Assembly (NCBI RefSeq): GCF_018687785.1
Contig: NZ_LTBL01000001.1
Location: 1,417,780 to 1,481,779, forward strand
Reading direction: 5' to 3'
From: Methanovulcanius yangii
GTDB taxonomy: Archaea; Halobacteriota; Methanomicrobia; Methanomicrobiales; Methanomicrobiaceae
DNA: 64,000 bases
The translations under genes were made by a program, and so were the position numbers. Every line of letters begins with the position of its first letter. Within the stretch, counting starts at the first letter, position 1. Of this stretch, positions 1,911-51,827 are shown piece by piece. The notes under the pieces were generated by a model. That model was given only the letters and a program-made list of their open reading frames with translations, ran no database searches and was not told the origin of the DNA.

Positions 1911-1911
1911 T

Positions 1912-22841: not shown

Positions 22842-22912
22842 TCGGGAATTATTTCGTCAGCCTTAATCGACCGATTCTGGCCAGAATGGAAGAATGATAA
22901 ATTTTTCAGCAA

Positions 22913-22923: not shown

Positions 22924-22941
22924 CACAGCAATAATTCCACT

Positions 22942-26826: not shown

Positions 26827-27594
26827 TTAATTGATTTTCCGGGTCATTGTATTCGCACCAGCCACTGCTACAACGGCAAAGGCGCCAAGTGCACCCCAGA
26901 CAGCGAGTGGCGTGGCAACGGAGGTGTTTGCATCGGCCGGCAATTCCACATCATTCCACTGGAGCTCCCATCCTTCGACATGGACGGCATGCTCAAAGGT
27001 GATGTTCTGTTTTCCGACCCGGATAGGGGGCGGGGTGATGGTTTCGTACTGGTGACCGGCGAGTGTAGTATTGATATTCGGGGTGTTGATCAGATCCTTC
27101 AGGAATGCATTCTCCGCACCGCCTTCTTCGAAGATGAGGACCCGGTTCGCCCGCCAGAGCTTCGGGTAGCCTTCCAGTGATGAAATATCGAGTGTCTTGA
27201 AAGTGAGAAGGGACGTGGAATCTGCAAAGGTTCCGTTCCTTTGTGCATCGAGGATGGGGGTGATATTGGTGAGGATGGTGTTCTTTCCGACGAAAGCGTG
27301 ATTATTACCTAGGATCATTTTTGGTATACTTTGCACAACGCTATATTTTTCTGAGAAATCACGGTTCAATAGAGCATTTTCCGTATGCTCAGAAAGTTCG
27401 TAATCAACCACCAGCAGTTCCGGATACAATGCAGTTATTTCAGTAAAAACATGCATATCCACATCTTCACAGGAACCACAGCTATTCGATGAGAAAAGAA
27501 ATGCATAATATTCCCCCTCATTTCCCTGAGCATCGACAACACCCATGCAACAGATGAAAACGAGAAACACTACCCACAAACGTCTCCACTTCAT
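26827..27594 (-). CDS. Secreted membrane-anchored thioredoxin-like CxxC protein
   Basis: This 255-residue protein has a signal peptide (about 1-22) and an extracytoplasmic domain whose first strand and CGSC redox pair (39-42, in SSNSCGSCEDVD) resemble thioredoxin-fold proteins. The SIPKMILG segment may hold the cis-Pro. A C-terminal transmembrane helix (about 228-248) ends in TRKIN. Several N-x-S/T sites are consistent with extracellular glycosylation. It lies 175 bases downstream of the giant surface-protein gene with its own TATA box, so a role in forming or shuffling disulfides of that Cys-rich protein is plausible but unproven. Confidence 0.72.
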   Translation of the reverse strand: MKWRRLWVVFLVFICCMGVVDAQGNEGEYYAFLFSSNSCGSCEDVDMHVFTEITALYPELLVVDYELSEHTENALLNRDFSEKYSVVQSIPKMILGNNHAFVGKNTILTNITPILDAQRNGTFADSTSLLTFKTLDISSLEGYPKLWRANRVLIFEEGGAENAFLKDLINTPNINTTLAGHQYETITPPPIRVGKQNITFEHAVHVEGWELQWNDVELPADANTSVATPLAVWGALGAFAVVAVAGANTMTRKIN

Positions 27595-27769: not shown

Positions 27770-30700
27770 TCACATTATTTTAATGAAGAATTTTTCATCC
27801 TTCGCGTTTTTATTCTCCTCTTTCTTTAACTGTCCAGGTGCTTCTGCACTGCCAGCCATGCACACATCTGAAGTACACACGCCGTCATCCGGATAATATG
27901 CAGTGAATTCCTCACATCCCCACTTGTAGTTGTTGATGCAATCAGCAAGCTCATGTGCGTCACCGTACTCTCCTCCCTCGTAGAGGACGTTGAGTATGTA
28001 ATCCCAGAGTTCCGCTACGGACACAATCGTTCCTTTGCAGTTGACTTCTTCAGATTCACATGCAGCCTTCAGAACGTCATAGCATTCCATGTAGATGATT
28101 GCTCCATATTCGTCTTCATACGAATACCGTGAGTAATCAATGGAATATACGAACCCGTCTTCGCTGTACGCCGAGGTGAGTTTCATTGCAATCATCTGTG
28201 CAATAGCCTTCTGCTTCGCATCCGATGCATCATAGTTCGCAAGCCGCTCATAGACATCCTCCCAGGCAAGACAGGTTGGGTCTATCATACCACAGGGCGG
28301 GGTTGGATAGTCTATCTCGAAGAATTCATCAGGCACCTGACGGCCGTTTGGCTTTTCGTCAAGGTACTTGCCTACATTATTCTTCCAGAATCCAATGGTC
28401 AGGCCACACCATTCGTTGAGATAGTCGTTGTCGATCGTGGTCTGGTTGCACGTATCGTTGCCGGGAGTGACCGTGACGGTGGTGTCACTGATGCTGACAA
28501 GCCATTCGGGACCGGGGTTGGTCTCGCTGACGGTGTAGTCACCAGGAACGAGGTTGTCCCATTTCAGCGTGCCGCCGAGGTAGCCGATCGTCTTGCAGTC
28601 GCCACTCGGATACGAAGGTCCGGTGATACAGACCTCGAACGTCTTGGCATCGTCGGGAGTGACGCCGTCCCAGTCGACGTTCTTGATCACTTCGAGACAG
28701 CCGAGGATGTACTCGTTCGTCACCGTCGCGGTTCCGACACCGCCACTTGTAACAGTAGCGCCGGAGTCGTCGATGACGGGGACTTCCCACTCACTGCCGA
28801 GAGCAGATTCCGTGACCGTGTAGGTGCCGGGAATCAGGTCGTCCCATCTCAGGACGCCGCCGGTCGTGCTCTTACAGTCACCACTCGGATACGAAGGACC
28901 GGTGATACAGATCTCAAAGAGAGTTCCGTCGGGAGTTACGCCGTTCCAGATGACATCTTTCGTTACCTCAAGGGAGCCGAGGATGTACTCGTTCGTCACC
29001 GTCGCGGTTCCGACACCACCACTTGTAACAGTAGCGCCGGAGTCGTCGATGACGGGGACTTCCCACTCACTGCCGAGAGCAGATTCCGTGACCGTGTAGG
29101 TGCCGGGAATCAGGTCGTCCCATCTCAGGACGCCGCCGGTCGTGCTCTTACAGTCACCACTCGGATACGAAGGACCGGTGATACAGATCTCAAAGAGAGT
29201 TCCGTCGGGAGTTACGCCGTTCCAGATGACATCTTTCGTTACCTCAAGGGAGCCGAGGATGTACTCGTTCGTCACCGTCGCGGTTCCGACACCACCACTT
29301 GTAACAGTAGCGCCGGAGTCGTCGATGACGGGGACTTCCCACTCACTGCCGAGAGCAGATTCCGTGACCGTGTAGGTGCCGGGAATCAGGTCGTCCCATC
29401 TCAGGACGCCGCCGGTCGTGCTCTTACAGTCACCACTCGGATACGAAGGACCGGTGATACAGATCTCAAAGAGAGTTCCGTCGGGAGTTACGCCGTTCCA
29501 GATGACATCTTTCGTTACCTCAAGGGAGCCGAGGATGTACTCGTTCGTCACCGTCGCGGTTCCGACACCACCACTTGTAACAGTAGCGCCGGAGTCGTCG
29601 ATGACGGGGACTTCCCACTCACTGCCGAGAGCAGATTCCGTGACCGTGTAGGTGCCGGGAATCAGGTCGTCCCATCTCAGGACGCCGCCGGTCGTGCTCT
29701 TACAGTCACCACTCGGATACGAAGGACCGGTGATACAGATCTCAAAGAGAGTTCCGCCGGGAGTTACGCCGTTCCAGATGACATCTTTCGTTACCTCAAG
29801 GGAGCCGAGGATGTACTCGTTCGTCACCGTCGCGGTTCCGACACCACCACTTGTAACAGTAGCGCCGGAGTCGTCGATGACGGGGACTTCCCACTCACTG
29901 CCGAGAGCAGATTCCGTGACCGTGTAGGTGCCGGGAATCAGGTCGTCCCATCTCAGGACGCCGCCGGTCGTGCTCTTACAGTCACCACTCGGATACGAAG
30001 GACCGGTGATACAGATCTCAAAGAGAGTTCCGTCGGGAGTTACGCCGTTCCAGATGACATCTTTCGTTACCTCAAGGGAGCCGAGGATGTACTCGTTCGT
30101 CACCGTCGCGGTTCCGACACCGCCACTTGTAACAGTAGCGCCGGAGTCGTCGATGACGGGGACTTCCCACTCACTGCCGAGAGCAGATTCCGTGACCGTG
30201 TAGGTGCCGGGAATCAGGTCGTCCCATCTCAGGACGCCGCCGGTCGTGCTCTTACAGTCACCACTCGGATACGAAGGACCGGTGATACAGATCTCAAAGA
30301 GAGTTCCGTCGGGAGTTACGCCGTTCCAGATGACATCTTTCGTTACCTCAAGGGAGCCGAGGATGTACTCGTTCGTCACCGTCGCGGTTCCGACACCGCC
30401 ACTTGTAACAGTAGCGCCGGAGTCGTCGATGACGGGGACTTCCCACTCACTGCCGAGAGCAGATTCCGTGACCGTGTAGGTGCCGGGAATCAGGTCGTCC
30501 CATCTCAGGACGCCGCCGGTCGTGCTCTTACAGTCACCACTCGGATACGAAGGACCGGTGATACAGATCTCAAAGAGAGTTCCGTCGGGAGTTACGCCGT
30601 TCCAGATGACATCTTTCGTTACCTCAAGGGAGCCGAGGATGTACTCGTTCGTCACCGTCGCGGTTCCGACACCACCACTTGTAACAGTAGCGCCGGAGTC

Positions 30701-33700
30701 GTCGATGACGGGGACTTCCCACTCACTGCCGAGAGCAGATTCCGTGACCGTGTAGGTGCCGGGAATCAGGTCGTCCCATCTCAGGACGCCGCCGGTCGTG
30801 CTCTTACAGTCACCACTCGGATACGAAGGACCGGTGATACAGATCTCAAAGAGAGTTCCGTCGGGAGTTACGCCGTTCCAGATGACATCTTTCGTTACCT
30901 CAAGGGAGCCGAGGATGTACTCGTTCGTCACCGTCGCGGTTCCGACACCACCACTTGTAACAGTAGCGCCGGAGTCGTCGATGACGGGGACTTCCCACTC
31001 ACTGCCGAGAGCAGATTCCGTGACCGTGTAGGTGCCGGGAATCAGGTCGTCCCATCTCAGGACGCCGCCGGTCGTGCTCTTACAGTCACCACTCGGATAC
31101 GAAGGACCGGTGATACAGATCTCAAAGAGAGTTCCGTCGGGAGTTACGCCGTTCCAGATGACATCTTTCGTTACCTCAAGGGAGCCGAGGATGTACTCGT
31201 TCGTCACCGTCGCGGTTCCGACACCGCCACTTGTAACAGTAGCGCCGGAGTCGTCGATGACGGGGACTTCCCACTCACTGCCGAGAGCAGATTCCGTGAC
31301 CGTGTAGGTGCCGGGAATCAGGTCGTCCCATCTCAGGACGCCGCCGGTCGTGCTCTTACAGTCACCACTCGGATACGAAGGACCGGTGATACAGATCTCA
31401 AAGAGAGTTCCGTCGGGAGTTACGCCGTTCCAGATGACATCTTTCGTTACCTCAAGGGAGCCGAGGATGTACTCGTTCGTCACCGTCGCGGTTCCGACAC
31501 CGCCACTTGTAACAGTAGCGCCGGAGTCGTCGATGACGGGGACTTCCCACTCACTGCCGAGAGCAGATTCCGTGACCGTGTAGGTGCCGGGAATCAGGTC
31601 GTCCCATCTCAGGACGCCGCCGGTCGTGCTCTTACAGTCACCACTCGGATACGAAGGACCGGTGATACAGATCTCAAAGAGAGTTCCGTCGGGAGTTACG
31701 CCGTTCCAGATGACATCTTTCGTTACCTCAAGGGAGCCGAGGATGTACTCGTTCGTCACCGTCGCGGTTCCGACACCGCCACTTGTAACAGTAGCGCCGG
31801 AGTCGTCGATGACGGGGACTTCCCACTCACTGCCGAGAGCAGATTCCGTGACCGTGTAGGTGCCGGGAATCAGGTCGTCCCATCTCAGGACGCCGCCGGT
31901 CGTGCTCTTACAGTCACCACTCGGATACGAAGGACCGGTGATACAGATCTCAAAGAGAGTTCCGTCGGGAGTTACGCCGTTCCAGATGACATCTTTCGTT
32001 ACCTCAAGGGAGCCGAGGATGTACTCGTTCGTCACCGTCGCGGTTCCGACACCACCACTTGTAACAGTAGCGCCGGAGTCGTCGATGACGGGGACTTCCC
32101 ACTCACTGCCGAGAGCAGATTCCGTGACCGTGTAGGTGCCGGGAATCAGGTCGTCCCATCTCAGGACGCCGCCGGTCGTGCTCTTACAGTCACCACTCGG
32201 ATACGAAGGACCGGTGATACAGATCTCAAAGAGAGTTCCGTCGGGAGTTACGCCGTTCCAGATGACATCTTTCGTTACCTCAAGGGAGCCGAGGATGTAC
32301 TCGTTCGTCACCGTCGCGGTTCCGACACCGCCACTTGTAACAGTAGCGCCGGAGTCGTCGATGACGGGGACTTCCCACTCACTGCCGAGAGCAGATTCCG
32401 TGACCGTGTAGGTGCCGGGAATCAGGTCGTCCCATCTCAGGACGCCGCCGGTCGTGCTCTTACAGTCACCACTCGGATACGAAGGACCGGTGATACAGAT
32501 CTCAAAGAGAGTTCCGTCGGGAGTTACGCCGTTCCAGATGACATCTTTCGTTACCTCAAGGGAGCCGAGGATGTACTCGTTCGTCACCGTCGCGGTTCCG
32601 ACACCGCCACTTGTAACAGTAGCGCCGGAGTCGTCGATGACGGGGACTTCCCACTCACTGCCGAGAGCAGATTCCGTGACCGTGTAGGTGCCGGGAATCA
32701 GGTCGTCCCATCTCAGGACGCCGCCGGTCGTGCTCTTACAGTCACCACTCGGATACGAAGGACCGGTGATACAGATCTCAAAGAGAGTTCCGTCGGGAGT
32801 TACGCCGTTCCAGATGACATCTTTCGTTACCTCAAGGGAGCCGAGGATGTACTCGTTCGTCACCGTCGCGGTTCCGACACCGCCACTTGTAACAGTAGCG
32901 CCGGAGTCGTCGATGACGGGGACTTCCCACTCACTGCCGAGAGCAGATTCCGTGACCGTGTAGGTGCCGGGAATCAGGTCGTCCCATCTCAGGACGCCGC
33001 CGGTCGTGCTCTTACAGTCACCACTCGGATACGAAGGACCGGTGATACAGATCTCAAAGAGAGTTCCGTCGGGAGTTACGCCGTTCCAGATGACATCTTT
33101 CGTTACCTCAAGGGAGCCGAGGATGTACTCGTTCGTCACCGTCGCGGTTCCGACACCGCCACTTGTAACAGTAGCGCCGGAGTCGTCGATGACGGGGACT
33201 TCCCACTCACTGCCGAGAGCAGATTCCGTGACCGTGTAGGTGCCGGGAATCAGGTCGTCCCATCTCAGGACGCCGCCGGTCGTGCTCTTACAGTCACCAC
33301 TCGGATACGAAGGACCGGTGATACAGATCTCAAAGAGAGTTCCGTCGGGAGTTACGCCGTTCCAGATGACATCTTTCGTTACCTCAAGGGAGCCGAGGAT
33401 GTACTCGTTCGTCACCGTCGCGGTTCCGACACCGCCACTTGTAACAGTAGCGCCGGAGTCGTCGATGACGGGGACTTCCCACTCACTGCCGAGAGCAGAT
33501 TCCGTGACCGTGTAGGTGCCGGGAATCAGGTCGTCCCATCTCAGGACGCCGCCGGTCGTGCTCTTACAGTCACCACTCGGATACGAAGGACCGGTGATAC
33601 AGATCTCAAAGAGAGTTCCGTCGGGAGTTACGCCGTTCCAGATGACATCTTTCGTTACCTCAAGGGAGCCGAGGATGTACTCGTTCGTCACCGTCGCGGT

Positions 33701-36700
33701 TCCGACACCACCACTTGTAACAGTAGCGCCGGAGTCGTCGATGACGGGGACTTCCCACTCACTGCCGAGAGCAGATTCCGTGACCGTGTAGGTGCCGGGA
33801 ATCAGGTCGTCCCATCTCAGGACGCCGCCGGTCGTGCTCTTACAGTCACCACTCGGATACGAAGGACCGGTGATACAGATCTCAAAGAGAGTTCCGTCGG
33901 GAGTTACGCCGTTCCAGATGACATCTTTCGTTACCTCAAGGGAGCCGAGGATGTACTCGTTCGTCACCGTCGCGGTTCCGACACCGCCACTTGTAACAGT
34001 AGCGCCGGAGTCGTCGATGACGGGGACTTCCCACTCACTGCCGAGAGCAGATTCCGTGACCGTGTAGGTGCCGGGAATCAGGTCGTCCCATCTCAGGACG
34101 CCGCCGGTCGTGCTCTTACAGTCACCACTCGGATACGAAGGACCGGTGATACAGATCTCAAAGAGAGTTCCGTCGGGAGTTACGCCGTTCCAGATGACAT
34201 CTTTCGTTACCTCAAGGGAGCCGAGGATGTACTCGTTCGTCACCGTCGCGGTTCCGACACCGCCACTTGTAACAGTAGCGCCGGAGTCGTCGATGACGGG
34301 GACTTCCCACTCACTGCCGAGAGCAGATTCCGTGACCGTGTAGGTGCCGGGAATCAGGTCGTCCCATCTCAGGACGCCGCCGGTCGTGCTCTTACAGTCA
34401 CCACTCGGATACGAAGGACCGGTGATACAGATCTCAAAGAGAGTTCCGTCGGGAGTTACGCCGTTCCAGATGACATCTTTCGTTACCTCAAGGGAGCCGA
34501 GGATGTACTCGTTCGTCACCGTCGCGGTTCCGACACCGCCACTTGTAACAGTAGCGCCGGAGTCGTCGATGACGGGGACTTCCCACTCACTGCCGAGAGC
34601 AGATTCCGTGACCGTGTAGGTGCCGGGAATCAGGTCGTCCCATCTCAGGACGCCGCCGGTCGTGCTCTTACAGTCACCACTCGGATACGAAGGACCGGTG
34701 ATACAGATCTCAAAGAGAGTTCCGTCGGGAGTTACGCCGTTCCAGATGACATCTTTCGTTACCTCAAGGGAGCCGAGGATGTACTCGTTCGTCACCGTCG
34801 CGGTTCCGACACCGCCACTTGTAACAGTAGCGCCGGAGTCGTCGATGACGGGGACTTCCCACTCACTGCCGAGAGCAGATTCCGTGACCGTGTAGGTGCC
34901 GGGAATCAGGTCGTCCCATCTCAGGACGCCGCCGGTCGTGCTCTTACAGTCACCACTCGGATACGAAGGACCGGTGATACAGATCTCAAAGAGAGTTCCG
35001 TCGGGAGTTACGCCGTTCCAGATGACATCTTTCGTTACCTCAAGGGAGCCGAGGATGTACTCGTTCGTCACCGTCGCGGTTCCGACACCGCCACTTGTAA
35101 CAGTAGCGCCGGAGTCGTCGATGACGGGGACTTCCCACTCACTGCCGAGAGCAGATTCCGTGACCGTGTAGGTGCCGGGAATCAGGTCGTCCCATCTCAG
35201 GACGCCGCCGGTCGTGCTCTTACAGTCACCACTCGGATACGAAGGACCGGTGATACAGATCTCAAAGAGAGTTCCGTCGGGAGTTACGCCGTTCCAGATG
35301 ACATCTTTCGTTACCTCAAGGGAGCCGAGGATGTACTCGTTCGTCACCGTCGCGGTTCCGACACCGCCACTTGTAACAGTAGCGCCGGAGTCGTCGATGA
35401 CGGGGACTTCCCACTCACTGCCGAGAGCAGATTCCGTGACCGTGTAGGTGCCGGGAATCAGGTCGTCCCATCTCAGGACGCCGCCGGTCGTGCTCTTACA
35501 GTCACCACTCGGATACGAAGGACCGGTGATACAGATCTCAAAGAGAGTTCCGTCGGGAGTTACGCCGTTCCAGATGACATCTTTCGTTACCTCAAGGGAG
35601 CCGAGGATGTACTCGTTCGTCACCGTCGCGGTTCCGACACCGCCACTTGTAACAGTAGCGCCGGAGTCGTCGATGACGGGGACTTCCCACTCACTGCCGA
35701 GAGCAGATTCCGTGACCGTGTAGGTGCCGGGAATCAGGTCGTCCCATCTCAGGACGCCGCCGGTCGTGCTCTTACAGTCACCACTCGGATACGAAGGACC
35801 GGTGATACAGATCTCAAAGAGAGTTCCGTCGGGAGTTACGCCGTTCCAGATGACATCTTTCGTTACCTCAAGGGAGCCGAGGATGTACTCGTTCGTCACC
35901 GTCGCGGTTCCGACACCGCCACTTGTAACAGTAGCGCCGGAGTCGTCGATGACGGGGACTTCCCACTCACTGCCGAGAGCAGATTCCGTGACCGTGTAGG
36001 TGCCGGGAATCAGGTCGTCCCATCTCAGGACGCCGCCGGTCGTGCTCTTACAGTCACCACTCGGATACGAAGGACCGGTGATACAGATCTCAAAGAGAGT
36101 TCCGTCGGGAGTTACGCCGTTCCAGATGACATCTTTCGTTACCTCAAGGGAGCCGAGGATGTACTCGTTCGTCACCGTCGCGGTTCCGACACCGCCACTT
36201 GTAACAGTAGCGCCGGAGTCGTCGATGACGGGGACTTCCCACTCACTGCCGAGAGCAGATTCCGTGACCGTGTAGGTGCCGGGAATCAGGTCGTCCCATC
36301 TCAGGACGCCGCCGGTCGTGCTCTTACAGTCACCACTCGGATACGAAGGACCGGTGATACAGATCTCAAAGAGAGTTCCGTCGGGAGTTACGCCGTTCCA
36401 GATGACATCTTTCGTTACCTCAAGGGAGCCGAGGATGTACTCGTTCGTCACCGTCGCGGTTCCGACACCGCCACTTGTAACAGTAGCGCCGGAGTCGTCG
36501 ATGACGGGGACTTCCCACTCACTGCCGAGAGCAGATTCCGTGACCGTGTAGGTGCCGGGAATCAGGTCGTCCCATCTCAGGACGCCGCCGGTCGTGCTCT
36601 TACAGTCACCACTCGGATACGAAGGACCGGTGATACAGATCTCAAAGAGAGTTCCGTCGGGAGTTACGCCGTTCCAGATGACATCTTTCGTTACCTCAAG

Positions 36701-39700
36701 GGAGCCGAGGATGTACTCGTTCGTCACCGTCGCGGTTCCGACACCGCCACTTGTAACAGTAGCGCCGGAGTCGTCGATGACGGGGACTTCCCACTCACTG
36801 CCGAGAGCAGATTCCGTGACCGTGTAGGTGCCGGGAATCAGGTCGTCCCATCTCAGGACGCCGCCGGTCGTGCTCTTACAGTCACCACTCGGATACGAAG
36901 GACCGGTGATACAGATCTCAAAGAGAGTTCCGTCGGGAGTTACGCCGTTCCAGATGACATCTTTCGTTACCTCAAGGGAGCCGAGGATGTACTCGTTCGT
37001 CACCGTCGCGGTTCCGACACCGCCACTTGTAACAGTAGCGCCGGAGTCGTCGATGACGGGGACTTCCCACTCACTGCCGAGAGCAGATTCCGTGACCGTG
37101 TAGGTGCCGGGAATCAGGTCGTCCCATCTCAGGACGCCGCCGGTCGTGCTCTTACAGTCACCACTCGGATACGAAGGACCGGTGATACAGATCTCAAAGA
37201 GAGTTCCGTCGGGAGTTACGCCGTTCCAGATGACATCTTTCGTTACCTCAAGGGAGCCGAGGATGTACTCGTTCGTCACCGTCGCGGTTCCGACACCGCC
37301 ACTTGTAACAGTAGCGCCGGAGTCGTCGATGACGGGGACTTCCCACTCACTGCCGAGAGCAGATTCCGTGACCGTGTAGGTGCCGGGAATCAGGTCGTCC
37401 CATCTCAGGACGCCGCCGGTCGTGCTCTTACAGTCACCACTCGGATACGAAGGACCGGTGATACAGATCTCAAAGAGAGTTCCGTCGGGAGTTACGCCGT
37501 TCCAGATGACATCTTTCGTTACCTCAAGGGAGCCGAGGATGTACTCGTTCGTCACCGTCGCGGTTCCGACACCGCCACTTGTAACAGTAGCGCCGGAGTC
37601 GTCGATGACGGGGACTTCCCACTCACTGCCGAGAGCAGATTCCGTGACCGTGTAGGTGCCGGGAATCAGGTCGTCCCATCTCAGGACGCCGCCGGTCGTG
37701 CTCTTACAGTCACCACTCGGATACGAAGGACCGGTGATACAGATCTCAAAGAGAGTTCCGTCGGGAGTTACGCCGTTCCAGATGACATCTTTCGTTACCT
37801 CAAGGGAGCCGAGGATGTACTCGTTCGTCACCGTCGCGGTTCCGACACCGCCACTTGTAACAGTAGCGCCGGAGTCGTCGATGACGGGGACTTCCCACTC
37901 ACTGCCGAGAGCAGATTCCGTGACCGTGTAGGTGCCGGGAATCAGGTCGTCCCATCTCAGGACGCCGCCGGTCGTGCTCTTACAGTCACCACTCGGATAC
38001 GAAGGACCGGTGATACAGATCTCAAAGAGAGTTCCGTCGGGAGTTACGCCGTTCCAGATGACATCTTTCGTTACCTCAAGGGAGCCGAGGATGTACTCGT
38101 TCGTCACCGTCGCGGTTCCGACACCGCCACTTGTAACAGTAGCGCCGGAGTCGTCGATGACGGGGACTTCCCACTCACTGCCGAGAGCAGATTCCGTGAC
38201 CGTGTAGGTGCCGGGAATCAGGTCGTCCCATCTCAGGACGCCGCCGGTCGTGCTCTTACAGTCACCACTCGGATACGAAGGACCGGTGATACAGATCTCA
38301 AAGAGAGTTCCGTCGGGAGTTACGCCGTTCCAGATGACATCTTTCGTTACCTCAAGGGAGCCGAGGATGTACTCGTTCGTCACCGTCGCGGTTCCGACAC
38401 CGCCACTTGTAACAGTAGCGCCGGAGTCGTCGATGACGGGGACTTCCCACTCACTGCCGAGAGCAGATTCCGTGACCGTGTAGGTGCCGGGAATCAGGTC
38501 GTCCCATCTCAGGACGCCGCCGGTCGTGCTCTTACAGTCACCACTCGGATACGAAGGACCGGTGATACAGATCTCAAAGAGAGTTCCGTCGGGAGTTACG
38601 CCGTTCCAGATGACATCTTTCGTTACCTCAAGGGAGCCGAGGATGTACTCGTTCGTCACCGTCGCGGTTCCGACACCGCCACTTGTAACAGTAGCGCCGG
38701 AGTCGTCGATGACGGGGACTTCCCACTCACTGCCGAGAGCAGATTCCGTGACCGTGTAGGTGCCGGGAATCAGGTCGTCCCATCTCAGGACGCCGCCGGT
38801 CGTGCTCTTACAGTCACCACTCGGATACGAAGGACCGGTGATACAGATCTCAAAGAGAGTTCCGTCGGGAGTTACGCCGTTCCAGATGACATCTTTCGTT
38901 ACCTCAAGGGAGCCGAGGATGTACTCGTTCGTCACCGTCGCGGTTCCGACACCGCCACTTGTAACAGTAGCGCCGGAGTCGTCGATGACGGGGACTTCCC
39001 ACTCACTGCCGAGAGCAGATTCCGTGACCGTGTAGGTGCCGGGAATCAGGTCGTCCCATCTCAGGACGCCGCCGGTCGTGCTCTTACAGTCACCACTCGG
39101 ATACGAAGGACCGGTGATACAGATCTCAAAGAGAGTTCCGTCGGGAGTTACGCCGTTCCAGATGACATCTTTCGTTACCTCAAGGGAGCCGAGGATGTAC
39201 TCGTTCGTCACCGTCGCGGTTCCGACACCACCACTTGTAACAGTAGCGCCGGAGTCGTCGATGACGGGGACTTCCCACTCACTGCCGAGAGCAGATTCCG
39301 TGACCGTGTAGGTGCCGGGAATCAGGTCGTCCCATCTCAGGACGCCGCCGGTCGTGCTCTTACAGTCACCACTCGGATACGAAGGACCGGTGATACAGAT
39401 CTCAAAGAGAGTTCCGTCGGGAGTTACGCCGTTCCAGATGACATCTTTCGTTACCTCAAGGGAGCCGAGGATGTACTCGTTCGTCACCGTCGCGGTTCCG
39501 ACACCGCCACTTGTAACAGTAGCGCCGGAGTCGTCGATGACGGGGACTTCCCACTCACTGCCGAGAGCAGATTCCGTGACCGTGTAGGTGCCGGGAATCA
39601 GGTCGTCCCATCTCAGGACGCCGCCGGTCGTGCTCTTACAGTCACCACTCGGATACGAAGGACCGGTGATACAGATCTCAAAGAGAGTTCCGTCGGGAGT

Positions 39701-42700
39701 TACGCCGTTCCAGATGACATCTTTCGTTACCTCAAGGGAGCCGAGGATGTACTCGTTCGTCACCGTCGCGGTTCCGACACCGCCACTTGTAACAGTAGCG
39801 CCGGAGTCGTCGATGACGGGGACTTCCCACTCACTGCCGAGAGCAGATTCCGTGACCGTGTAGGTGCCGGGAATCAGGTCGTCCCATCTCAGGACGCCGC
39901 CGGTCGTGCTCTTACAGTCACCACTCGGATACGAAGGACCGGTGATACAGATCTCAAAGAGAGTTCCGTCGGGAGTTACGCCGTTCCAGATGACATCTTT
40001 CGTTACCTCAAGGGAGCCGAGGATGTACTCGTTCGTCACCGTCGCGGTTCCGACACCACCACTTGTAACAGTAGCGCCGGAGTCGTCGATGACGGGGACT
40101 TCCCACTCACTGCCGAGAGCAGATTCCGTGACCGTGTAGGTGCCGGGAATCAGGTCGTCCCATCTCAGGACGCCGCCGGTCGTGCTCTTACAGTCACCAC
40201 TCGGATACGAAGGACCGGTGATACAGATCTCAAAGAGAGTTCCGTCGGGAGTTACGCCGTTCCAGATGACATCTTTCGTTACCTCAAGGGAGCCGAGGAT
40301 GTACTCGTTCGTCACCGTCGCGGTTCCGACACCGCCACTTGTAACAGTAGCGCCGGAGTCGTCGATGACGGGGACTTCCCACTCACTGCCGAGAGCAGAT
40401 TCCGTGACCGTGTAGGTGCCGGGAATCAGGTCGTCCCATCTCAGGACGCCGCCGGTCGTGCTCTTACAGTCACCACTCGGATACGAAGGACCGGTGATAC
40501 AGATCTCAAAGAGAGTTCCGTCGGGAGTTACGCCGTTCCAGATGACATCTTTCGTTACCTCAAGGGAGCCGAGGATGTACTCGTTCGTCACCGTCGCGGT
40601 TCCGACACCGCCACTTGTAACAGTAGCGCCGGAGTCGTCGATGACGGGGACTTCCCACTCACTGCCGAGAGCAGATTCCGTGACCGTGTAGGTGCCGGGA
40701 ATCAGGTCGTCCCATCTCAGGACGCCGCCGGTCGTGCTCTTACAGTCACCACTCGGATACGAAGGACCGGTGATACAGATCTCAAAGAGAGTTCCGTCGG
40801 GAGTTACGCCGTTCCAGATGACATCTTTCGTTACCTCAAGGGAGCCGAGGATGTACTCGTTCGTCACCGTCGCGGTTCCGACACCGCCACTTGTAACAGT
40901 AGCGCCGGAGTCGTCGATGACGGGGACTTCCCACTCACTGCCGAGAGCAGATTCCGTGACCGTGTAGGTGCCGGGAATCAGGTCGTCCCATCTCAGGACG
41001 CCGCCGGTCGTGCTCTTACAGTCACCACTCGGATACGAAGGACCGGTGATACAGATCTCAAAGAGAGTTCCGTCGGGAGTTACGCCGTTCCAGATGACAT
41101 CTTTCGTTACCTCAAGGGAGCCGAGGATGTACTCGTTCGTCACCGTCGCGGTTCCGACACCACCACTTGTAACAGTAGCGCCGGAGTCGTCGATGACGGG
41201 GACTTCCCACTCACTGCCGAGAGCAGATTCCGTGACCGTGTAGGTGCCGGGAATCAGGTCGTCCCATCTCAGGACGCCGCCGGTCGTGCTCTTACAGTCA
41301 CCACTCGGATACGAAGGACCGGTGATACAGATCTCAAAGAGAGTTCCGTCGGGAGTTACGCCGTTCCAGATGACATCTTTCGTTACCTCAAGGGAGCCGA
41401 GGATGTACTCGTTCGTCACCGTCGCGGTTCCGACACCGCCACTTGTAACAGTAGCGCCGGAGTCGTCGATGACGGGGACTTCCCACTCACTGCCGAGAGC
41501 AGATTCCGTGACCGTGTAGGTGCCGGGAATCAGGTCGTCCCATCTCAGGACGCCGCCGGTCGTGCTCTTACAGTCACCACTCGGATACGAAGGACCGGTG
41601 ATACAGATCTCAAAGAGAGTTCCGTCGGGAGTTACGCCGTTCCAGATGACATCTTTCGTTACCTCAAGGGAGCCGAGGATGTACTCGTTCGTCACCGTCG
41701 CGGTTCCGACACCACCACTTGTAACAGTAGCGCCGGAGTCGTCGATGACGGGGACTTCCCACTCACTGCCGAGAGCAGATTCCGTGACCGTGTAGGTGCC
41801 GGGAATCAGGTCGTCCCATCTCAGGACGCCGCCGGTCGTGCTCTTACAGTCACCACTCGGATACGAAGGACCGGTGATACAGATCTCAAAGAGAGTTCCG
41901 TCGGGAGTTACGCCGTTCCAGATGACATCTTTCGTTACCTCAAGGGAGCCGAGGATGTACTCGTTCGTCACCGTCGCGGTTCCGACACCGCCACTTGTAA
42001 CAGTAGCGCCGGAGTCGTCGATGACGGGGACTTCCCACTCACTGCCGAGAGCAGATTCCGTGACCGTGTAGGTGCCGGGAATCAGGTCGTCCCATCTCAG
42101 GACGCCGCCGGTCGTGCTCTTACAGTCACCACTCGGATACGAAGGACCGGTGATACAGATCTCAAAGAGAGTTCCGTCGGGAGTTACGCCGTTCCAGATG
42201 ACATCTTTCGTTACCTCAAGGGAGCCGAGGATGTACTCGTTCGTCACCGTCGCGGTTCCGACACCGCCACTTGTAACAGTAGCGCCGGAGTCGTCGATGA
42301 CGGGGACTTCCCACTCACTGCCGAGAGCAGATTCCGTGACCGTGTAGGTGCCGGGAATCAGGTCGTCCCATCTCAGGACGCCGCCGGTCGTGCTCTTACA
42401 GTCACCACTCGGATACGAAGGACCGGTGATACAGATCTCAAAGAGAGTTCCGTCGGGAGTTACGCCGTTCCAGATGACATCTTTCGTTACCTCAAGGGAG
42501 CCGAGGATGTACTCGTTCGTCACCGTCGCGGTTCCGACACCGCCACTTGTAACAGTAGCGCCGGAGTCGTCGATGACGGGGACTTCCCACTCACTGCCGA
42601 GAGCAGATTCCGTGACCGTGTAGGTGCCGGGAATCAGGTCGTCCCATCTCAGGACGCCGCCGGTCGTGCTCTTACAGTCACCACTCGGATACGAAGGACC

Positions 42701-44404
42701 GGTGATACAGATCTCAAAGAGAGTTCCGTCGGGAGTTACGCCGTTCCAGATGACATCTTTCGTTACCTCAAGGGAGCCGAGGATGTACTCGTTCGTCACC
42801 GTCGCGGTTCCGACACCACCACTTGTAACAGTAGCGCCGGAGTCGTCGATGACGGGGACTTCCCACTCACTGCCGAGAGCAGATTCCGTGACCGTGTAGG
42901 TGCCGGGAATCAGGTCGTCCCATCTCAGGACGCCGCCGGTCGTGCTCTTACAGTCACCACTCGGATACGAAGGACCGGTGATACAGATCTCAAAGAGAGT
43001 TCCGTCGGGAGTTACGCCGTTCCAGATGACATCTTTCGTTACCTCAAGGGAGCCGAGGATGTACTCGTTCGTCACCGTCGCGGTTCCGACACCACCACTT
43101 GTAACAGTAGCGCCGGAGTCGTCGATGACGGGGACTTCCCACTCACTGCCGAGAGCAGATTCCGTGACCGTGTAGGTGCCGGGAATCAGGTCGTCCCATC
43201 TCAGGACGCCGCCGGTCGTGCTCTTACAGTCACCACTCGGATACGAAGGACCGGTGATACAGATCTCAAAGAGAGTTCCGTCGGGAGTTACGCCGTTCCA
43301 GATGACATCTTTCGTTACCTCAAGGGAGCCGGGATTGTACGTGTTCGTAACGGGGGCTACGGAACATTCACTGCCAGCATACACCATGACTGTCTGGGGA
43401 CTGCCAGTCACAATCCATTCATCCCCTATCGCCGTTTCGGTGATGGTGTACTCACCAGGTGTCAGGTCGTAGAGCGTCTGGGTTCCACCGATCTGATCAA
43501 AGTATAGGTAGCCATCATAGCCGGGTCCGACAACATGGATTTCAAACTGGACCGTATACGGAGTAATATCACCCCAGTCGACGTTCTTCACGACCTCAAG
43601 GCAACCCTTATCTTCGATCCGGACGGCCCACTCTTCGAAGTCGGCATTGTGCTCCATGTCGGGTTGTATACCACTCTCAGTGACGAAGTAAACCCACTTT
43701 GAGCGATCTGTGCCCATCAGTTCCACCGGTGCAAGAACGGTCAGGTCACTTTTCCCGCTGCCGGGTTCAAGAACGTAATTGAGCTTAATATAGGCCTCTC
43801 CCTCAGCATCGAGACTCCACATAAGAACAGCATTCTCACCTCCTGGCGACTCGAATTTTCTGCTTGTCCAGTTATAAGCGTGCAGATCAGGGTCATCATC
43901 CAAATAAATCCTCAGTTCGTCGATCGAGAGAAGAGGATCGCTTGCGACCTGATTGATATCACCATTAACTTCGTAATAGTAATTTCCCGAATCTTCCGGA
44001 TATTCCACAATTGGGAATTCGCTCAACTGGATATTTCGAGTCCATTGAACGTTCTTGTCGGTTTCATACCCGTCCTGTATGGGGCGGAATCCCGTGTTGT
44101 AGTTTTGCTGAATATCCTCATTGCCCTTCGTCCGCACAAAAGGACTAAAAGTACCTGTCCCCGTTGCTGAGGGTAAGGCACCCTGTAAGAACCAGACATC
44201 TTGGTACTCAACCCAATTATCCGCAACGGACAGATCCAGTTCAGTGAGGAATACAGTACCATTCCACACTACTACCGGCTCTACTTGTTCAGCTGCCACC
44301 GGCACCGCAAAGGCCGATAGACAGAGCGCCAGAACCAGCACCATAAGAACAGCATACCGAAGCGGTATGCCGCGTTCATTACGTGTTTCTTTTTCTGTTT
44401 TCAT
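27770..44404 (-). CDS. Giant secreted surface protein with 53 near-identical CnaB/SpaA-like repeats
   Basis: The product is about 5544 residues. Order: signal peptide (about 1-40); a unique N-terminal domain (about 41-267) shared with the paralogue at 45599-48853; one divergent CnaB-like domain (268-358); 53 tandem 92-residue repeats (359-5234); one more divergent repeat (from 5235); and a Cys-rich C-terminal domain with TIGFWKNN (about 5328-5544). Each repeat has SLEVTK, TYTVTES and TVTNEY, matching the Lys, Glu and Asn of isopeptide-forming CnaB folds, plus two Cys. No C-terminal membrane anchor or sorting signal is seen. I choose ATG 44404 because AAGGAG lies 9 bases upstream. It is probably a fibre or adhesin outside the cell. 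Confidence 0.92.
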   Translation of the reverse strand: MKTEKETRNERGIPLRYAVLMVLVLALCLSAFAVPVAAEQVEPVVVWNGTVFLTELDLSVADNWVEYQDVWFLQGALPSATGTGTFSPFVRTKGNEDIQQNYNTGFRPIQDGYETDKNVQWTRNIQLSEFPIVEYPEDSGNYYYEVNGDINQVASDPLLSIDELRIYLDDDPDLHAYNWTSRKFESPGGENAVLMWSLDAEGEAYIKLNYVLEPGSGKSDLTVLAPVELMGTDRSKWVYFVTESGIQPDMEHNADFEEWAVRIEDKGCLEVVKNVDWGDITPYTVQFEIHVVGPGYDGYLYFDQIGGTQTLYDLTPGEYTITETAIGDEWIVTGSPQTVMVYAGSECSVAPVTNTYNPGSLEVTKDVIWNGVTPDGTLFEICITGPSYPSGDCKSTTGGVLRWDDLIPGTYTVTESALGSEWEVPVIDDSGATVTSGGVGTATVTNEYILGSLEVTKDVIWNGVTPDGTLFEICITGPSYPSGDCKSTTGGVLRWDDLIPGTYTVTESALGSEWEVPVIDDSGATVTSGGVGTATVTNEYILGSLEVTKDVIWNGVTPDGTLFEICITGPSYPSGDCKSTTGGVLRWDDLIPGTYTVTESALGSEWEVPVIDDSGATVTSGGVGTATVTNEYILGSLEVTKDVIWNGVTPDGTLFEICITGPSYPSGDCKSTTGGVLRWDDLIPGTYTVTESALGSEWEVPVIDDSGATVTSGGVGTATVTNEYILGSLEVTKDVIWNGVTPDGTLFEICITGPSYPSGDCKSTTGGVLRWDDLIPGTYTVTESALGSEWEVPVIDDSGATVTSGGVGTATVTNEYILGSLEVTKDVIWNGVTPDGTLFEICITGPSYPSGDCKSTTGGVLRWDDLIPGTYTVTESALGSEWEVPVIDDSGATVTSGGVGTATVTNEYILGSLEVTKDVIWNGVTPDGTLFEICITGPSYPSGDCKSTTGGVLRWDDLIPGTYTVTESALGSEWEVPVIDDSGATVTSGGVGTATVTNEYILGSLEVTKDVIWNGVTPDGTLFEICITGPSYPSGDCKSTTGGVLRWDDLIPGTYTVTESALGSEWEVPVIDDSGATVTSGGVGTATVTNEYILGSLEVTKDVIWNGVTPDGTLFEICITGPSYPSGDCKSTTGGVLRWDDLIPGTYTVTESALGSEWEVPVIDDSGATVTSGGVGTATVTNEYILGSLEVTKDVIWNGVTPDGTLFEICITGPSYPSGDCKSTTGGVLRWDDLIPGTYTVTESALGSEWEVPVIDDSGATVTSGGVGTATVTNEYILGSLEVTKDVIWNGVTPDGTLFEICITGPSYPSGDCKSTTGGVLRWDDLIPGTYTVTESALGSEWEVPVIDDSGATVTSGGVGTATVTNEYILGSLEVTKDVIWNGVTPDGTLFEICITGPSYPSGDCKSTTGGVLRWDDLIPGTYTVTESALGSEWEVPVIDDSGATVTSGGVGTATVTNEYILGSLEVTKDVIWNGVTPDGTLFEICITGPSYPSGDCKSTTGGVLRWDDLIPGTYTVTESALGSEWEVPVIDDSGATVTSGGVGTATVTNEYILGSLEVTKDVIWNGVTPDGTLFEICITGPSYPSGDCKSTTGGVLRWDDLIPGTYTVTESALGSEWEVPVIDDSGATVTSGGVGTATVTNEYILGSLEVTKDVIWNGVTPDGTLFEICITGPSYPSGDCKSTTGGVLRWDDLIPGTYTVTESALGSEWEVPVIDDSGATVTSGGVGTATVTNEYILGSLEVTKDVIWNGVTPDGTLFEICITGPSYPSGDCKSTTGGVLRWDDLIPGTYTVTESALGSEWEVPVIDDSGATVTSGGVGTATVTNEYILGSLEVTKDVIWNGVTPDGTLFEICITGPSYPSGDCKSTTGGVLRWDDLIPGTYTVTESALGSEWEVPVIDDSGATVTSGGVGTATVTNEYILGSLEVTKDVIWNGVTPDGTLFEICITGPSYPSGDCKSTTGGVLRWDDLIPGTYTVTESALGSEWEVPVIDDSGATVTSGGVGTATVTNEYILGSLEVTKDVIWNGVTPDGTLFEICITGPSYPSGDCKSTTGGVLRWDDLIPGTYTVTESALGSEWEVPVIDDSGATVTSGGVGTATVTNEYILGSLEVTKDVIWNGVTPDGTLFEICITGPSYPSGDCKSTTGGVLRWDDLIPGTYTVTESALGSEWEVPVIDDSGATVTSGGVGTATVTNEYILGSLEVTKDVIWNGVTPDGTLFEICITGPSYPSGDCKSTTGGVLRWDDLIPGTYTVTESALGSEWEVPVIDDSGATVTSGGVGTATVTNEYILGSLEVTKDVIWNGVTPDGTLFEICITGPSYPSGDCKSTTGGVLRWDDLIPGTYTVTESALGSEWEVPVIDDSGATVTSGGVGTATVTNEYILGSLEVTKDVIWNGVTPDGTLFEICITGPSYPSGDCKSTTGGVLRWDDLIPGTYTVTESALGSEWEVPVIDDSGATVTSGGVGTATVTNEYILGSLEVTKDVIWNGVTPDGTLFEICITGPSYPSGDCKSTTGGVLRWDDLIPGTYTVTESALGSEWEVPVIDDSGATVTSGGVGTATVTNEYILGSLEVTKDVIWNGVTPDGTLFEICITGPSYPSGDCKSTTGGVLRWDDLIPGTYTVTESALGSEWEVPVIDDSGATVTSGGVGTATVTNEYILGSLEVTKDVIWNGVTPDGTLFEICITGPSYPSGDCKSTTGGVLRWDDLIPGTYTVTESALGSEWEVPVIDDSGATVTSGGVGTATVTNEYILGSLEVTKDVIWNGVTPDGTLFEICITGPSYPSGDCKSTTGGVLRWDDLIPGTYTVTESALGSEWEVPVIDDSGATVTSGGVGTATVTNEYILGSLEVTKDVIWNGVTPDGTLFEICITGPSYPSGDCKSTTGGVLRWDDLIPGTYTVTESALGSEWEVPVIDDSGATVTSGGVGTATVTNEYILGSLEVTKDVIWNGVTPDGTLFEICITGPSYPSGDCKSTTGGVLRWDDLIPGTYTVTESALGSEWEVPVIDDSGATVTSGGVGTATVTNEYILGSLEVTKDVIWNGVTPDGTLFEICITGPSYPSGDCKSTTGGVLRWDDLIPGTYTVTESALGSEWEVPVIDDSGATVTSGGVGTATVTNEYILGSLEVTKDVIWNGVTPDGTLFEICITGPSYPSGDCKSTTGGVLRWDDLIPGTYTVTESALGSEWEVPVIDDSGATVTSGGVGTATVTNEYILGSLEVTKDVIWNGVTPDGTLFEICITGPSYPSGDCKSTTGGVLRWDDLIPGTYTVTESALGSEWEVPVIDDSGATVTSGGVGTATVTNEYILGSLEVTKDVIWNGVTPDGTLFEICITGPSYPSGDCKSTTGGVLRWDDLIPGTYTVTESALGSEWEVPVIDDSGATVTSGGVGTATVTNEYILGSLEVTKDVIWNGVTPDGTLFEICITGPSYPSGDCKSTTGGVLRWDDLIPGTYTVTESALGSEWEVPVIDDSGATVTSGGVGTATVTNEYILGSLEVTKDVIWNGVTPDGTLFEICITGPSYPSGDCKSTTGGVLRWDDLIPGTYTVTESALGSEWEVPVIDDSGATVTSGGVGTATVTNEYILGSLEVTKDVIWNGVTPDGTLFEICITGPSYPSGDCKSTTGGVLRWDDLIPGTYTVTESALGSEWEVPVIDDSGATVTSGGVGTATVTNEYILGSLEVTKDVIWNGVTPDGTLFEICITGPSYPSGDCKSTTGGVLRWDDLIPGTYTVTESALGSEWEVPVIDDSGATVTSGGVGTATVTNEYILGSLEVTKDVIWNGVTPDGTLFEICITGPSYPSGDCKSTTGGVLRWDDLIPGTYTVTESALGSEWEVPVIDDSGATVTSGGVGTATVTNEYILGSLEVTKDVIWNGVTPDGTLFEICITGPSYPSGDCKSTTGGVLRWDDLIPGTYTVTESALGSEWEVPVIDDSGATVTSGGVGTATVTNEYILGSLEVTKDVIWNGVTPDGTLFEICITGPSYPSGDCKSTTGGVLRWDDLIPGTYTVTESALGSEWEVPVIDDSGATVTSGGVGTATVTNEYILGSLEVTKDVIWNGVTPDGTLFEICITGPSYPSGDCKSTTGGVLRWDDLIPGTYTVTESALGSEWEVPVIDDSGATVTSGGVGTATVTNEYILGSLEVTKDVIWNGVTPDGTLFEICITGPSYPSGDCKSTTGGVLRWDDLIPGTYTVTESALGSEWEVPVIDDSGATVTSGGVGTATVTNEYILGSLEVTKDVIWNGVTPDGTLFEICITGPSYPSGDCKSTTGGVLRWDDLIPGTYTVTESALGSEWEVPVIDDSGATVTSGGVGTATVTNEYILGSLEVTKDVIWNGVTPDGTLFEICITGPSYPSGDCKSTTGGVLRWDDLIPGTYTVTESALGSEWEVPVIDDSGATVTSGGVGTATVTNEYILGSLEVTKDVIWNGVTPDGTLFEICITGPSYPSGDCKSTTGGVLRWDDLIPGTYTVTESALGSEWEVPVIDDSGATVTSGGVGTATVTNEYILGSLEVTKDVIWNGVTPDGTLFEICITGPSYPSGDCKSTTGGVLRWDDLIPGTYTVTESALGSEWEVPVIDDSGATVTSGGVGTATVTNEYILGSLEVTKDVIWNGVTPDGTLFEICITGPSYPSGDCKSTTGGVLRWDDLIPGTYTVTESALGSEWEVPVIDDSGATVTSGGVGTATVTNEYILGSLEVTKDVIWNGVTPDGTLFEICITGPSYPSGDCKSTTGGVLRWDDLIPGTYTVTESALGSEWEVPVIDDSGATVTSGGVGTATVTNEYILGSLEVTKDVIWNGVTPDGTLFEICITGPSYPSGDCKSTTGGVLRWDDLIPGTYTVTESALGSEWEVPVIDDSGATVTSGGVGTATVTNEYILGSLEVTKDVIWNGVTPGGTLFEICITGPSYPSGDCKSTTGGVLRWDDLIPGTYTVTESALGSEWEVPVIDDSGATVTSGGVGTATVTNEYILGSLEVTKDVIWNGVTPDGTLFEICITGPSYPSGDCKSTTGGVLRWDDLIPGTYTVTESALGSEWEVPVIDDSGATVTSGGVGTATVTNEYILGSLEVTKDVIWNGVTPDGTLFEICITGPSYPSGDCKSTTGGVLRWDDLIPGTYTVTESALGSEWEVPVIDDSGATVTSGGVGTATVTNEYILGSLEVTKDVIWNGVTPDGTLFEICITGPSYPSGDCKSTTGGVLRWDDLIPGTYTVTESALGSEWEVPVIDDSGATVTSGGVGTATVTNEYILGCLEVIKNVDWDGVTPDDAKTFEVCITGPSYPSGDCKTIGYLGGTLKWDNLVPGDYTVSETNPGPEWLVSISDTTVTVTPGNDTCNQTTIDNDYLNEWCGLTIGFWKNNVGKYLDEKPNGRQVPDEFFEIDYPTPPCGMIDPTCLAWEDVYERLANYDASDAKQKAIAQMIAMKLTSAYSEDGFVYSIDYSRYSYEDEYGAIIYMECYDVLKAACESEEVNCKGTIVSVAELWDYILNVLYEGGEYGDAHELADCINNYKWGCEEFTAYYPDDGVCTSDVCMAGSAEAPGQLKKEENKNAKDEKFFIKIM
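28703..43330 (-). repeat. Array of 53 tandem 276-bp coding repeats
   Basis: The array is 14,628 bp, exactly 53 x 276 bp, all in one frame. Units look identical except at two columns. One is a synonymous Gly codon (GGT in 14 units, GGC in 39). The other is a single Asp-to-Gly change in unit 50 (near 29757). Counting from the protein N-terminus, GGT occurs in units 1, 2, 6, 8, 12, 15, 35, 41, 45, 46 and 49-52; units 16-34 are an unbroken GGC run. This indicates very recent expansion or strong homogenisation. The copy number depends on correct long-read assembly. Confidence 0.95.
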
Positions 44405-45598: not shown

Positions 45599-48500
45599 TC
45601 AGCTATTCTCCTCACAGGTGCAGATCACACCATTGTCATAGCCGTCGTAGTCCTCGCATCCCCACTTGTAATTGTTGATGCAGTCGGCAAGCTCCTGTGC
45701 CGCGCTGTAGTCTTTGTCGCAATAGAGATCCTCGATCAGCTCCCAGAGGTCCCCGACATTCATCGGATTTCCTCCAATGCACTTGGATGCGTCCTTCAGG
45801 ACCCAGTAGCAGTCCTCATAGACCCACCCGCAGGCATCACAGTCATACCACTTGTAGCGGTTATAGTCGATGACATAGTTGCCGAAGTCGCCCTCAACGT
45901 AGAGCTCGGTAAGCTTCATTGCAAGCATCTGGGCAACGGCCTTCTCCTGAGCATTCGAAGCATCGTAGTCGGCAATCAGACCATAGACATGCTCCCAACC
46001 ACAGCATCCGGAACAGAATGCCGGATCAACATCCATACAGACGGCGCAGGGATCGATACCCTCGAAGAACCAGTCAGGCACCTGACGGCCATTTGTCCAC
46101 TCCTCGTTGTACTTGTAGATGTTGTTCTTCCAGAATCCGATGGTGTATCCGCACCATTCATTTCTCGGGTAGTAGTTGCCGAAGTACTCCTTCGCCAGCT
46201 GGCCCGGTATGAGAACACCGACCTCCTTGATGGCAAGTGAATCCACTATCAAATCAGCGTTTGTCGGCACCCAGCCTTCCTGGATGTCTTCGCTCAGCCA
46301 GTACTTGCCCGGCATGAGGAGTTCGCCACACATGTATTCAGACATGTACGTATCAAAGCAGACTTTGCCATTCTCGTCGGTGTACCCCCACGCGACCGGC
46401 AGGGTCGGCGCATCCTTTCCGTCACAGTCATCATCGTCAATCCAGAGGGTCATCTTCCAGCCCTCGAGCATCTGCTCGCAGGGTTCACGAATCCCGTTCT
46501 CGTTGACATCTTCAAACTTGTACGCACAGACCTTCACCGGCTGGAAGTTGCCGAAGTTGATCGTTGCCTCATCGCCGGACAGGAGAACGCCGACATAGAT
46601 GACACCAAGTGAATCAACCTGGAAGTCAATGTTCGTCGGGTACCATCCGCCCTTGATCGTCTCGCTCACCCAGTACTTGCCGGGTTCGAGATCGGTGAAA
46701 CAGACCATGCCCTCGCAGTTGGTTAAGCCGCATGCAATGACCTCACTCGGCCCGTCAACACCTGTCCAGAGCTTGATCTCCCAGCCTTCAAGGAGCTCTT
46801 CATCACCATCATAGGTCTTGTCGCGCTCGTCGTCCTGGAACTTCCGGACGCAGATGTCGACCGGCTTGAACATTCCGGCATCCCACGTGAGGTCGGTTTC
46901 ACCCGCGCTCAGTGTCGTCATGGTGGTATCACCGGTGTACGGGTCTGCATCGCTGTCCTTTGCGTCATCAGCGCCCTGGTTTGCGGGGCTGAATCTCCAT
47001 CCATCGGGCAGATCAAAGTTGAGATAGTACGAGCCGGGCTTCAGGCAGTTGAAGAGGTAATTGCCATTCGCATCAGTCGCCGTTTCGGCGACCTTCATGC
47101 TGCTGCCATCAAAGAGCGTGACCTGAACTCCCGCGACGCCAGGTTCTCCGGCGTCCTGGATACCGTCTGCATCCATGTCTTCCCAGACGAAGTCACCGAT
47201 GGTTGCCGGCACGTAGGTGTTCGTCACGGTTGCCTCTGCACAGTCACCGTCGGGCTCGACAGTTACCGGCGACCCGTCGATGCAGACCATCCACGCTGAG
47301 CCGGGGTCGGTTTCACTGATCGTGTATTCACCAGGAATCAGATCCTCCCAGACCACTGTGCCACCCATGTAACCGATGCATTTGCAGCTGCCATCCGGAT
47401 AGGAGGGGCCGGTAATGCAGACCTCAAAGGTCTGTTCCGACTTTGGATCGCACAGACCCCAGTCGACGATCTTGGTCACCTCAAGACAGCCACGGTTGTA
47501 TATGTTTGTCACACCTACCTGGGCACATGCTTCGCCAGCCTCAACCATGACCTCACTGTCGGGACAGTACTTAACCGTCCACTGCGCCGGGTCAACGTCC
47601 ACTTCTTCAACGGTGTAGCATCCAGGGATCAGATCGTCCCATGTCAGGACCTGCCCATCAGCGGTCGCATACTTCGTATCACCCGTGGGGTAGGACGGTC
47701 CGGTGATCATGATCGCAAATTCGACCGGTTTTGCTGCCGCACCGTTCCAGTCGATCGTTTTTGTCACATCGAGACAGCCAAGCTTGTGCTCGTTCGTGAC
47801 CGTCGCTGTTGCCACCTCGTCAGCCACCACTGTCGCAGGCGAGCCCGTAATCACCGGGACCTCCCACTCACTGCCCGGGGAGGTTTCGGTGACGATATAC
47901 TCGCCGGGGACCAGGTCCTCCCAGAGGAGCGTTCCACCGGTGGTGGTCTTGCAGTCGCCGTCCGGGTACGAGGGTCCGGTGATGCAGATCTCAAACGTCG
48001 TCCCGTCAGGAGTGACACCATTCCAGATGACATCCTTTGTCACCTCAAGCGAGCCCTTCTCGACGATCTCGACCGCCCACTCTTCAAATCCGTCGTTGTG
48101 CGGGTAGACCACGCCGCTCTTCGTTACGAAGATGACATACACGTTCTTGTCTGCGGGGAAGAAACCCACCGGGGCAAGGACGGTCAGGTCACTCTTTCCG
48201 CTCCCTGCTTCCAGGGCGTAATCGAGCTTGATCCACGCATCTTCTGTGATGCCATCGAGATTCCATTCAAGCGCTACCGCAACACCGGGATCGTCGAACG
48301 TTTTGGTACCATCATTATACATGTGCAGGTTGTCACCGCCGGGCCCGGCAGTAAACACCCGGAGTTCGTCGATCGACAGGAGGGACCTCCCATTGACCTG
48401 GTTGATGTCACCGTTGAACTCATAGTAATAATTCGTGGTTCCTGCAGGATACTCATACTCGACAATTGGAACATCCTTCAGCTGGAGGCTGTGCGTCCAC

Positions 48501-51621: not shown

Positions 51622-51827
51622 TGCACTCACCTACATGATTAATCATGTAAATATCCGGAGTTTCCCCCCCTTCCATTCCGATAGCGGTTGAGAAGAAGGA
51701 GGTTTTACAGGCACCATGCAGTGCACTATGGATCATAGTTGCCAGATAACAGGTATTAAATCTTTGAATGCACCACAAATATGCACTGCATTTATCCTGC
51801 ACACCGCGTGGGGGGCACCAGAACAAT

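Follow-up and report, generated by a model that had tools for sequence, protein, structure and literature searches.

A giant methanogen surface protein with a near-identical CnaB-like repeat array: a candidate periscope-type adhesin

Marinomonas primoryensis MpAFP is a bacterial RTX-type adhesin. In this giant protein about 120 identical 104-residue Ig-like repeats, which depend on Ca2+, extend the tip (PMC4083281). In the periscope proteins (SasG, Rib, Sgo_0707 and CdrA), a head at the N-terminus and a base at the C-terminus enclose near-identical domains encoded by near-identical DNA; these proteins have been described for bacteria, with archaea unmentioned (PMC8201768). In Gram-positive CnaB proteins, covering the families SpaA (PF17802), DUF5979 (PF19407), SdrD_B (PF17210) and DUF7601 (PF24547), the common fold is a transthyretin-like beta-sandwich. 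The pilins and fibrillar adhesins built from it form tandem stalks whose domains carry a Lys-Glu-Asn triad on the first, an inner and the last strand. All four are isopeptide families frequent in the stalks of fibrillar adhesins (PMC12617251). Isopeptide-type stalks also occur in methanogens, where the DUF11/CLIPPER surface proteins, some of them acquired from bacteria, supply the main examples: the archaeal cases surveyed are primarily CnaA-like DUF11 (PMC12617251).

Here we describe a locus in a window of 64,000 nucleotides (the whole stretch of DNA that was analysed) that resembles each of these systems and departs from each. Its central gene encodes a tandem stalk of domains with the CnaB fold and triad; unlike the Gram-positive proteins, the domains score below the family cut-offs, carry a conserved Cys pair and belong to a methanogen protein with neither LPXTG motif nor sortase polymerisation. 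As in periscope proteins, there is a long array of highly identical domains and DNA, and probable head and base domains are present, but the host is an archaeon, the stalk consists of 55 CnaB domains, the probable anchor is different and the length variation is one that we infer. Where MpAFP relies on Ca2+, covalent locking is predicted here, in an archaeal protein with an N-terminal signal peptide. Compared with the DUF11 proteins, the array is CnaB-like and near-identical, and no ArtA/PGF-CTERM anchor accompanies it. We consider it fairly probable that this protein is a secreted, cell-anchored, covalently locked fibrillar stalk of variable length, that is, an adhesin of the periscope type.

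The repeat array and its copy number

The features of the gene, from the N-terminal end of the protein to its C-terminal end, are as follows.

27770..44404, minus strand: giant surface protein gene, 5544 codons plus stop, uninterrupted, 16.6 kb
44291..44404, minus strand: N-terminal signal peptide of 38 residues, MKTEKETRNERGIPLRYAVLMVLVLALCLSAFAVPVAA, recognised by hydropathy; a very similar leader is found on a sister-species surface protein
43607..44290, minus strand: N-terminal domain, probable distal head, common to the paralog, a second giant protein and sister species G122
43331..43606, minus strand: divergent CnaB-like unit 0, N-terminal flank of the array
28703..43330, minus strand: 53 near-identical CnaB-like units of 92 residues (276 nucleotides each), head to tail
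28418..28702, minus strand: divergent CnaB-like unit 54, C-terminal flank of the array
27869..28408, minus strand: C-terminal domain with conserved Cys (GFWKNN...ADCINNYKWGC), probably an anchor or dock on the cell-proximal side
27773..27868, minus strand: Lys-rich hydrophilic tail without membrane helix or sorting motif; a comparable PPGQ/K-rich tail occurs in a sister-species gene

The open frame reaches back to a GTG at 44479 and contains, at 44404, the ATG that is accompanied by the signal peptide; it closes at the stop codon at 27770. Counted from this ATG, the single uninterrupted frame of 5544 codons given by an earlier sequence-only reading is exact, and so is the 53-unit array said to occupy 88% of it (4876 of 5544 residues). 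Tandem Repeats Finder independently returned a period of 276, 53.5 copies and 99% matches, with a score of 29184 that is far beyond chance. Together with the divergent unit at either end, the CnaB-like units number 55 and make up 91% of the protein. These two flanking units, the upstream paralog and a second contig composed of repeats (see below) add to what that reading had reported.

The amino-acid sequence is identical in 51 of the 53 array units. The variation in the array is limited to a synonymous site at unit nucleotide 230, which is either C or T, a single D-to-G change and the codon at the junction of the final unit. The array contains 106 Cys residues. Its 53 units are free of N-glycosylation sequons; the protein has four, which are confined to the N-terminal domain and divergent unit 54. 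Near-zero diversity of this kind fits a recent runaway duplication, and the presence of only three CnaB units in the upstream paralog could be read in the same sense: the array would be a neutral or selfish, satellite-like expansion whose length has no function, only the flanking domains being of consequence. We regard this as improbable, since the length of the unit is a multiple of three, the frame and the K-E-N triad are intact in every array copy, and a sister species has, in a gene at the same locus, units that are identical to one another but differ in sequence from these, so that expansion recurs.

The number of units calls for more caution than the array itself. The genome assembly consists of two contigs, C1, which carries the gene, and C2, which is 11,012 bp long and is made up solely of the array unit (about 40 copies). 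Relative to the unit, C2 contains 58 mismatches, 39 deletions and 30 insertions, many of them frame-breaking, and no part of it (1-11012) is placed on or merged into C1. These features suggest that C2 derives from long uncorrected reads lying wholly within the array that were left unplaced by the assembler. C2 is to be taken as an array fragment and not as a plasmid. Apart from additional units, the C/T pattern along C2 is similar to a portion of that in C1, but an equally high score was reached in 28 of 1000 shuffles, so that placement on C1 by this single variant is only suggestive. The array is real, but because a repeat-only contig exists, 53 is not settled as the copy number; the true gene may have more or fewer units, or the population may contain several lengths. 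We put the chance that 53 is an outcome of assembly at slightly better than even, the unmerged, error-laden C2 and its C/T pattern arguing for it, and the clean frame of C1 across 53 units, bounded at each end by a unique divergent unit, arguing against it. Such an outcome concerns the number only and is compatible with the adhesin reading. Consensus polishing could likewise be a partial source of the extreme identity of the units.

Fold and predicted cross-links of the unit

An AlphaFold2 model of two consecutive units, built with an alignment of 18 other unit pairs, has a mean pLDDT of 93.4 and is all-beta, with eight strands per unit. The CnaB-like fold proposed from the letters of the sequence, for which structure prediction had been named as a check, is borne out by this beta-sandwich and by its structural matches. 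Isopeptide pilins (PitA, the S. pyogenes major pilin, SpaA and RrgB) rank first in a Foldseek search, in which the highest TM score, 0.65, goes to the TIE protein of B. anthracis; VIA-align gives Z values near 10 to the same pilin group, and the matches of the two programs also take in the B repeats of SdrD and Cna. Among the VIA-align matches is a Mobiluncus mulieris adhesin (PDB 5u5o/5u6f; Z 10.1, rmsd 2.6, 92 residues aligned) that has disulfide, isopeptide and ester cross-links. The likeness would extend to the occurrence of disulfide and isopeptide in one protein; the Mobiluncus adhesin, however, is bacterial, and its ester-bond chemistry is not indicated in the giant protein.

A second check proposed earlier, an HMM search with one unit, gave a divided result. 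The expected families were matched, but below their Pfam gathering scores: DUF5979 at 22.1 against a cut-off of 25 bits and SpaA at 16.8 against 23.1, along with a weak sub-cutoff match to DUF7601. When 13 related units were searched at E < 0.1, SpaA was matched by 12 and DUF5979 by nine. Against the PDB, the sequence of a single unit found chance-level matches only, and a unit profile found weak matches to filamins and pilins.

In 13 units from Chloroflexota, WWE3, Thermoplasmatales and this genus, K7, E57, N88, C24 and C35 are invariant. The model places Lys7 in strand 1, Glu57 at the end of the strand spanning 51-57 and Asn88 in the last strand, in agreement with the CnaB triad as set out in PMC12617251. 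A wider set of units includes one, from a sister species, with Asp in place of Asn. The Cys pair is not universal, being missing from several Thermoplasmatales units and from divergent unit 0. Judged by the modelled fold and the triad, the unit is a CnaB-like domain beneath present Pfam cut-offs. Each stalk domain is predicted to form a self-catalysed isopeptide bond between Lys7 and Asn88, Glu57 serving as catalytic acid; a Cys24-Cys35 disulfide is probable as well.

Ends of the protein and neighbouring genes

Hydropathy along the giant protein reaches its maximum, 2.7, within the first 60 residues and stays below 1.0 elsewhere. The N-terminal domain behind the signal peptide is 59%, 48% and 53% identical to its counterparts in the paralog, the second giant protein and G122, respectively; this genome has three copies of it and G122 one, and the genes of the other sister species, G123, have other heads. 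Pfam and NCBIfam hold no family of its own for it, and the head yielded no recognisable binding domain. The second giant protein of this genome, a secreted protein of 4637 residues (C1:790616-804529, plus strand), has the N-terminal-type domain in an internal position; its other parts include a single CnaB-like unit as well as tandem-95 and NHL-type repeats.

Only two copies of the C-terminal domain occur in this genome; both sister species have it too, as does G011, a distant genome of the same order. It sits behind a CnaB-only stalk in the giant protein, behind CnaB and SdrD_B domains in the paralog, in G122 and in the first G123 gene, behind DUF11-like repeats in the second G123 gene and behind another beta-repeat in G011. 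Because this domain is constant while heads and stalks vary, the architecture makes it the likely base or anchor. Its model (pLDDT 82.7) is mostly helical; the best E values were no lower than 0.8 with Foldseek and 0.36 by sequence, and assignment to a known fold was rejected, as the PDB offered no convincing match. In G011 (L056:7053-12368), the beta-repeat stalk in front of the domain is without Pfam matches.

A motif and hydropathy check upheld the earlier statement that no C-terminal membrane anchor or sorting motif is present: the C-terminus of the giant protein has no PGF-CTERM, LPXTG or membrane helix, and that of the paralog likewise no PGF-CTERM. Anchoring through either motif was accordingly discarded. 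The genome encodes one archaeosortase-like protein (C1:867854-868555) and one PGF-CTERM protein (C1:1269867-1269935, in an 820-residue frame), none other being found; for sortase there is a sub-cutoff match only. The absence of the motif is meaningful because archaeosortase and a PGF-CTERM protein occur elsewhere in the genome. As far as sequence can tell, the giant surface proteins bypass the archaeosortase/PGF-CTERM route, and the protein described here is neither a sortase-assembled pilin nor a PGF-CTERM substrate.

The lack of a C-terminal helix or sorting motif in a genome so equipped, and a C-terminal domain that matches no known fold, would also fit a protein that is released or is part of an extracellular matrix or sheath, the C-terminal domain then acting as a folding or oligomerisation cap. 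We think this unlikely, since anchored fibrillar proteins usually combine a constant C-terminal domain with variable heads and stalks, and attachment to the S-layer is possible without a sorting motif. The anchored adhesin that we favour has points against it: no known anchor fold, no binding domain found in the head and a unit that falls below Pfam cut-offs. A general argument, that near-identical neighbouring domains are prone to misfold together (PMC8201768), counts against the array protein too.

Three neighbouring genes complete the locus.

26827..27594, minus strand: secreted, membrane-anchored thioredoxin-like CxxC protein, a neighbour kept in three of three genus genomes
45599..48853, minus strand: paralog just upstream, with the same N-terminal domain, three CnaB-like units, SdrD_B domains and the same C-terminal domain
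49729..51630, minus strand: acetyl-CoA synthetase, bordering the surface-protein locus in this genome and also in G123, where it is recognised by sequence likeness

On the minus strand the order is acetyl-CoA synthetase, paralog, giant gene and thioredoxin-like gene, with a gene for McrA glutamine methyltransferase beyond. Since the window encodes this enzyme, the host is a methanogen, which supports the archaeal origin previously proposed. Upstream of the methyltransferase gene, two adjoining genes (21177-24255) have weak matches to LIC10124-type lipoproteins.

Besides a signal peptide and a C-terminal helix, the thioredoxin-like protein (255 residues) has a cis-Pro motif; CxxC is present in all ten aligned members of its family. 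Compared with E. coli thioredoxin, the family profile aligned at CxxC and cis-Pro (probability 86%, P 5e-6), and Pfam gave no match. Close orthologs (66-70% identity) are confined to this genus and lie in this neighbourhood each time. The frames of distant relatives from other genera are longer, and one includes a sub-cutoff SfLAP membrane-protein match.

Relatives of the locus and a model for the thread

Among 232 genomes of the order, the unit was found in the three of this genus only. Its named relatives outside the order, at 48-58% identity, belong to Chloroflexota, WWE3 and one Thermoplasmatales genome; most are Anaerolineae surface proteins, and one to six units per gene were seen. Within the class taken as Anaerolineae, 12 of 396 genomes carry the unit. 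One such relative also has a sub-cutoff match to a thioester domain. This distribution suggests that the unit has moved horizontally between bacteria and archaea, in one direction or the other. A viral origin was considered and rejected, no relative of the unit being present among viral contigs.

The G123 locus comprises a gene resembling acetyl-CoA synthetase, one for a CnaB/SdrD_B protein, one for a thioredoxin-like protein, one for another surface protein and a further two of the thioredoxin-like kind. In its CnaB/SdrD_B gene, two adjacent units beside an assembly gap are identical at 264 of 264 nucleotides. The stalk of the second surface gene (L033:10395-14700) is DUF11-like and is interrupted by an assembly gap within a repeat; the gene ends in the same C-terminal domain as the giant protein, here of the GFWQNN type. 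In G122 the head lies at one contig end, and the last units and the C-terminal domain, followed by the thioredoxin-like gene, on another; the gene thus appears to be split within the stalk. Because the genes of both sister species break in the stalk, and because G123 has identical adjacent units of another sequence, it seems that repeats have expanded at this locus more than once within the genus, and from different unit sequences. The broken arrays of G122 and G123 and contig C2 are compatible with a varying repeat number.

Together, these observations can be accommodated in the following model. The signal peptide would export the giant protein; the N-terminal domain would be the probable distal, binding head, the 55 CnaB-like domains would form the stalk and the Cys-containing C-terminal domain would hold the base at the cell envelope. 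With one isopeptide bond and a probable disulfide per domain, the rod should resist stretching and proteolysis, the disulfides probably being made or repaired by the secreted thioredoxin-like neighbour. A CnaB domain measures 4-5 nm in length. At that spacing the thread would extend over roughly 200-250 nm, a figure made uncertain by contig C2, and it would be very long and stiff, as had been surmised from the sequence. Like that of bacterial periscope proteins, its length should vary across cells and strains, because the DNA units are virtually identical and unequal recombination between them, adding or removing units, is therefore possible. From the features described above we infer bond formation, C-terminal anchoring, adhesion and variation of length in vivo. 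A more elaborate picture, which we offer tentatively and hold to be rather doubtful as a whole, is that of an archaeal periscope with recombination-tuned length, an isopeptide/disulfide double lock, a dedicated thioredoxin-like partner, a new motif-free C-terminal anchor and units acquired from bacteria of the Anaerolineae type, contact with which they perhaps serve.

Anaerolineae often live alongside methanogens. The distribution of the unit points to gene exchange between the two groups, and the giant protein to a new way of retaining proteins on the archaeal surface. The array is in addition a natural test of how misfolding is avoided among identical neighbouring domains. Isopeptide stalks and periscope proteins are known mainly from bacteria; a methanogen with about 55 CnaB domains in one protein would extend both to the archaea.
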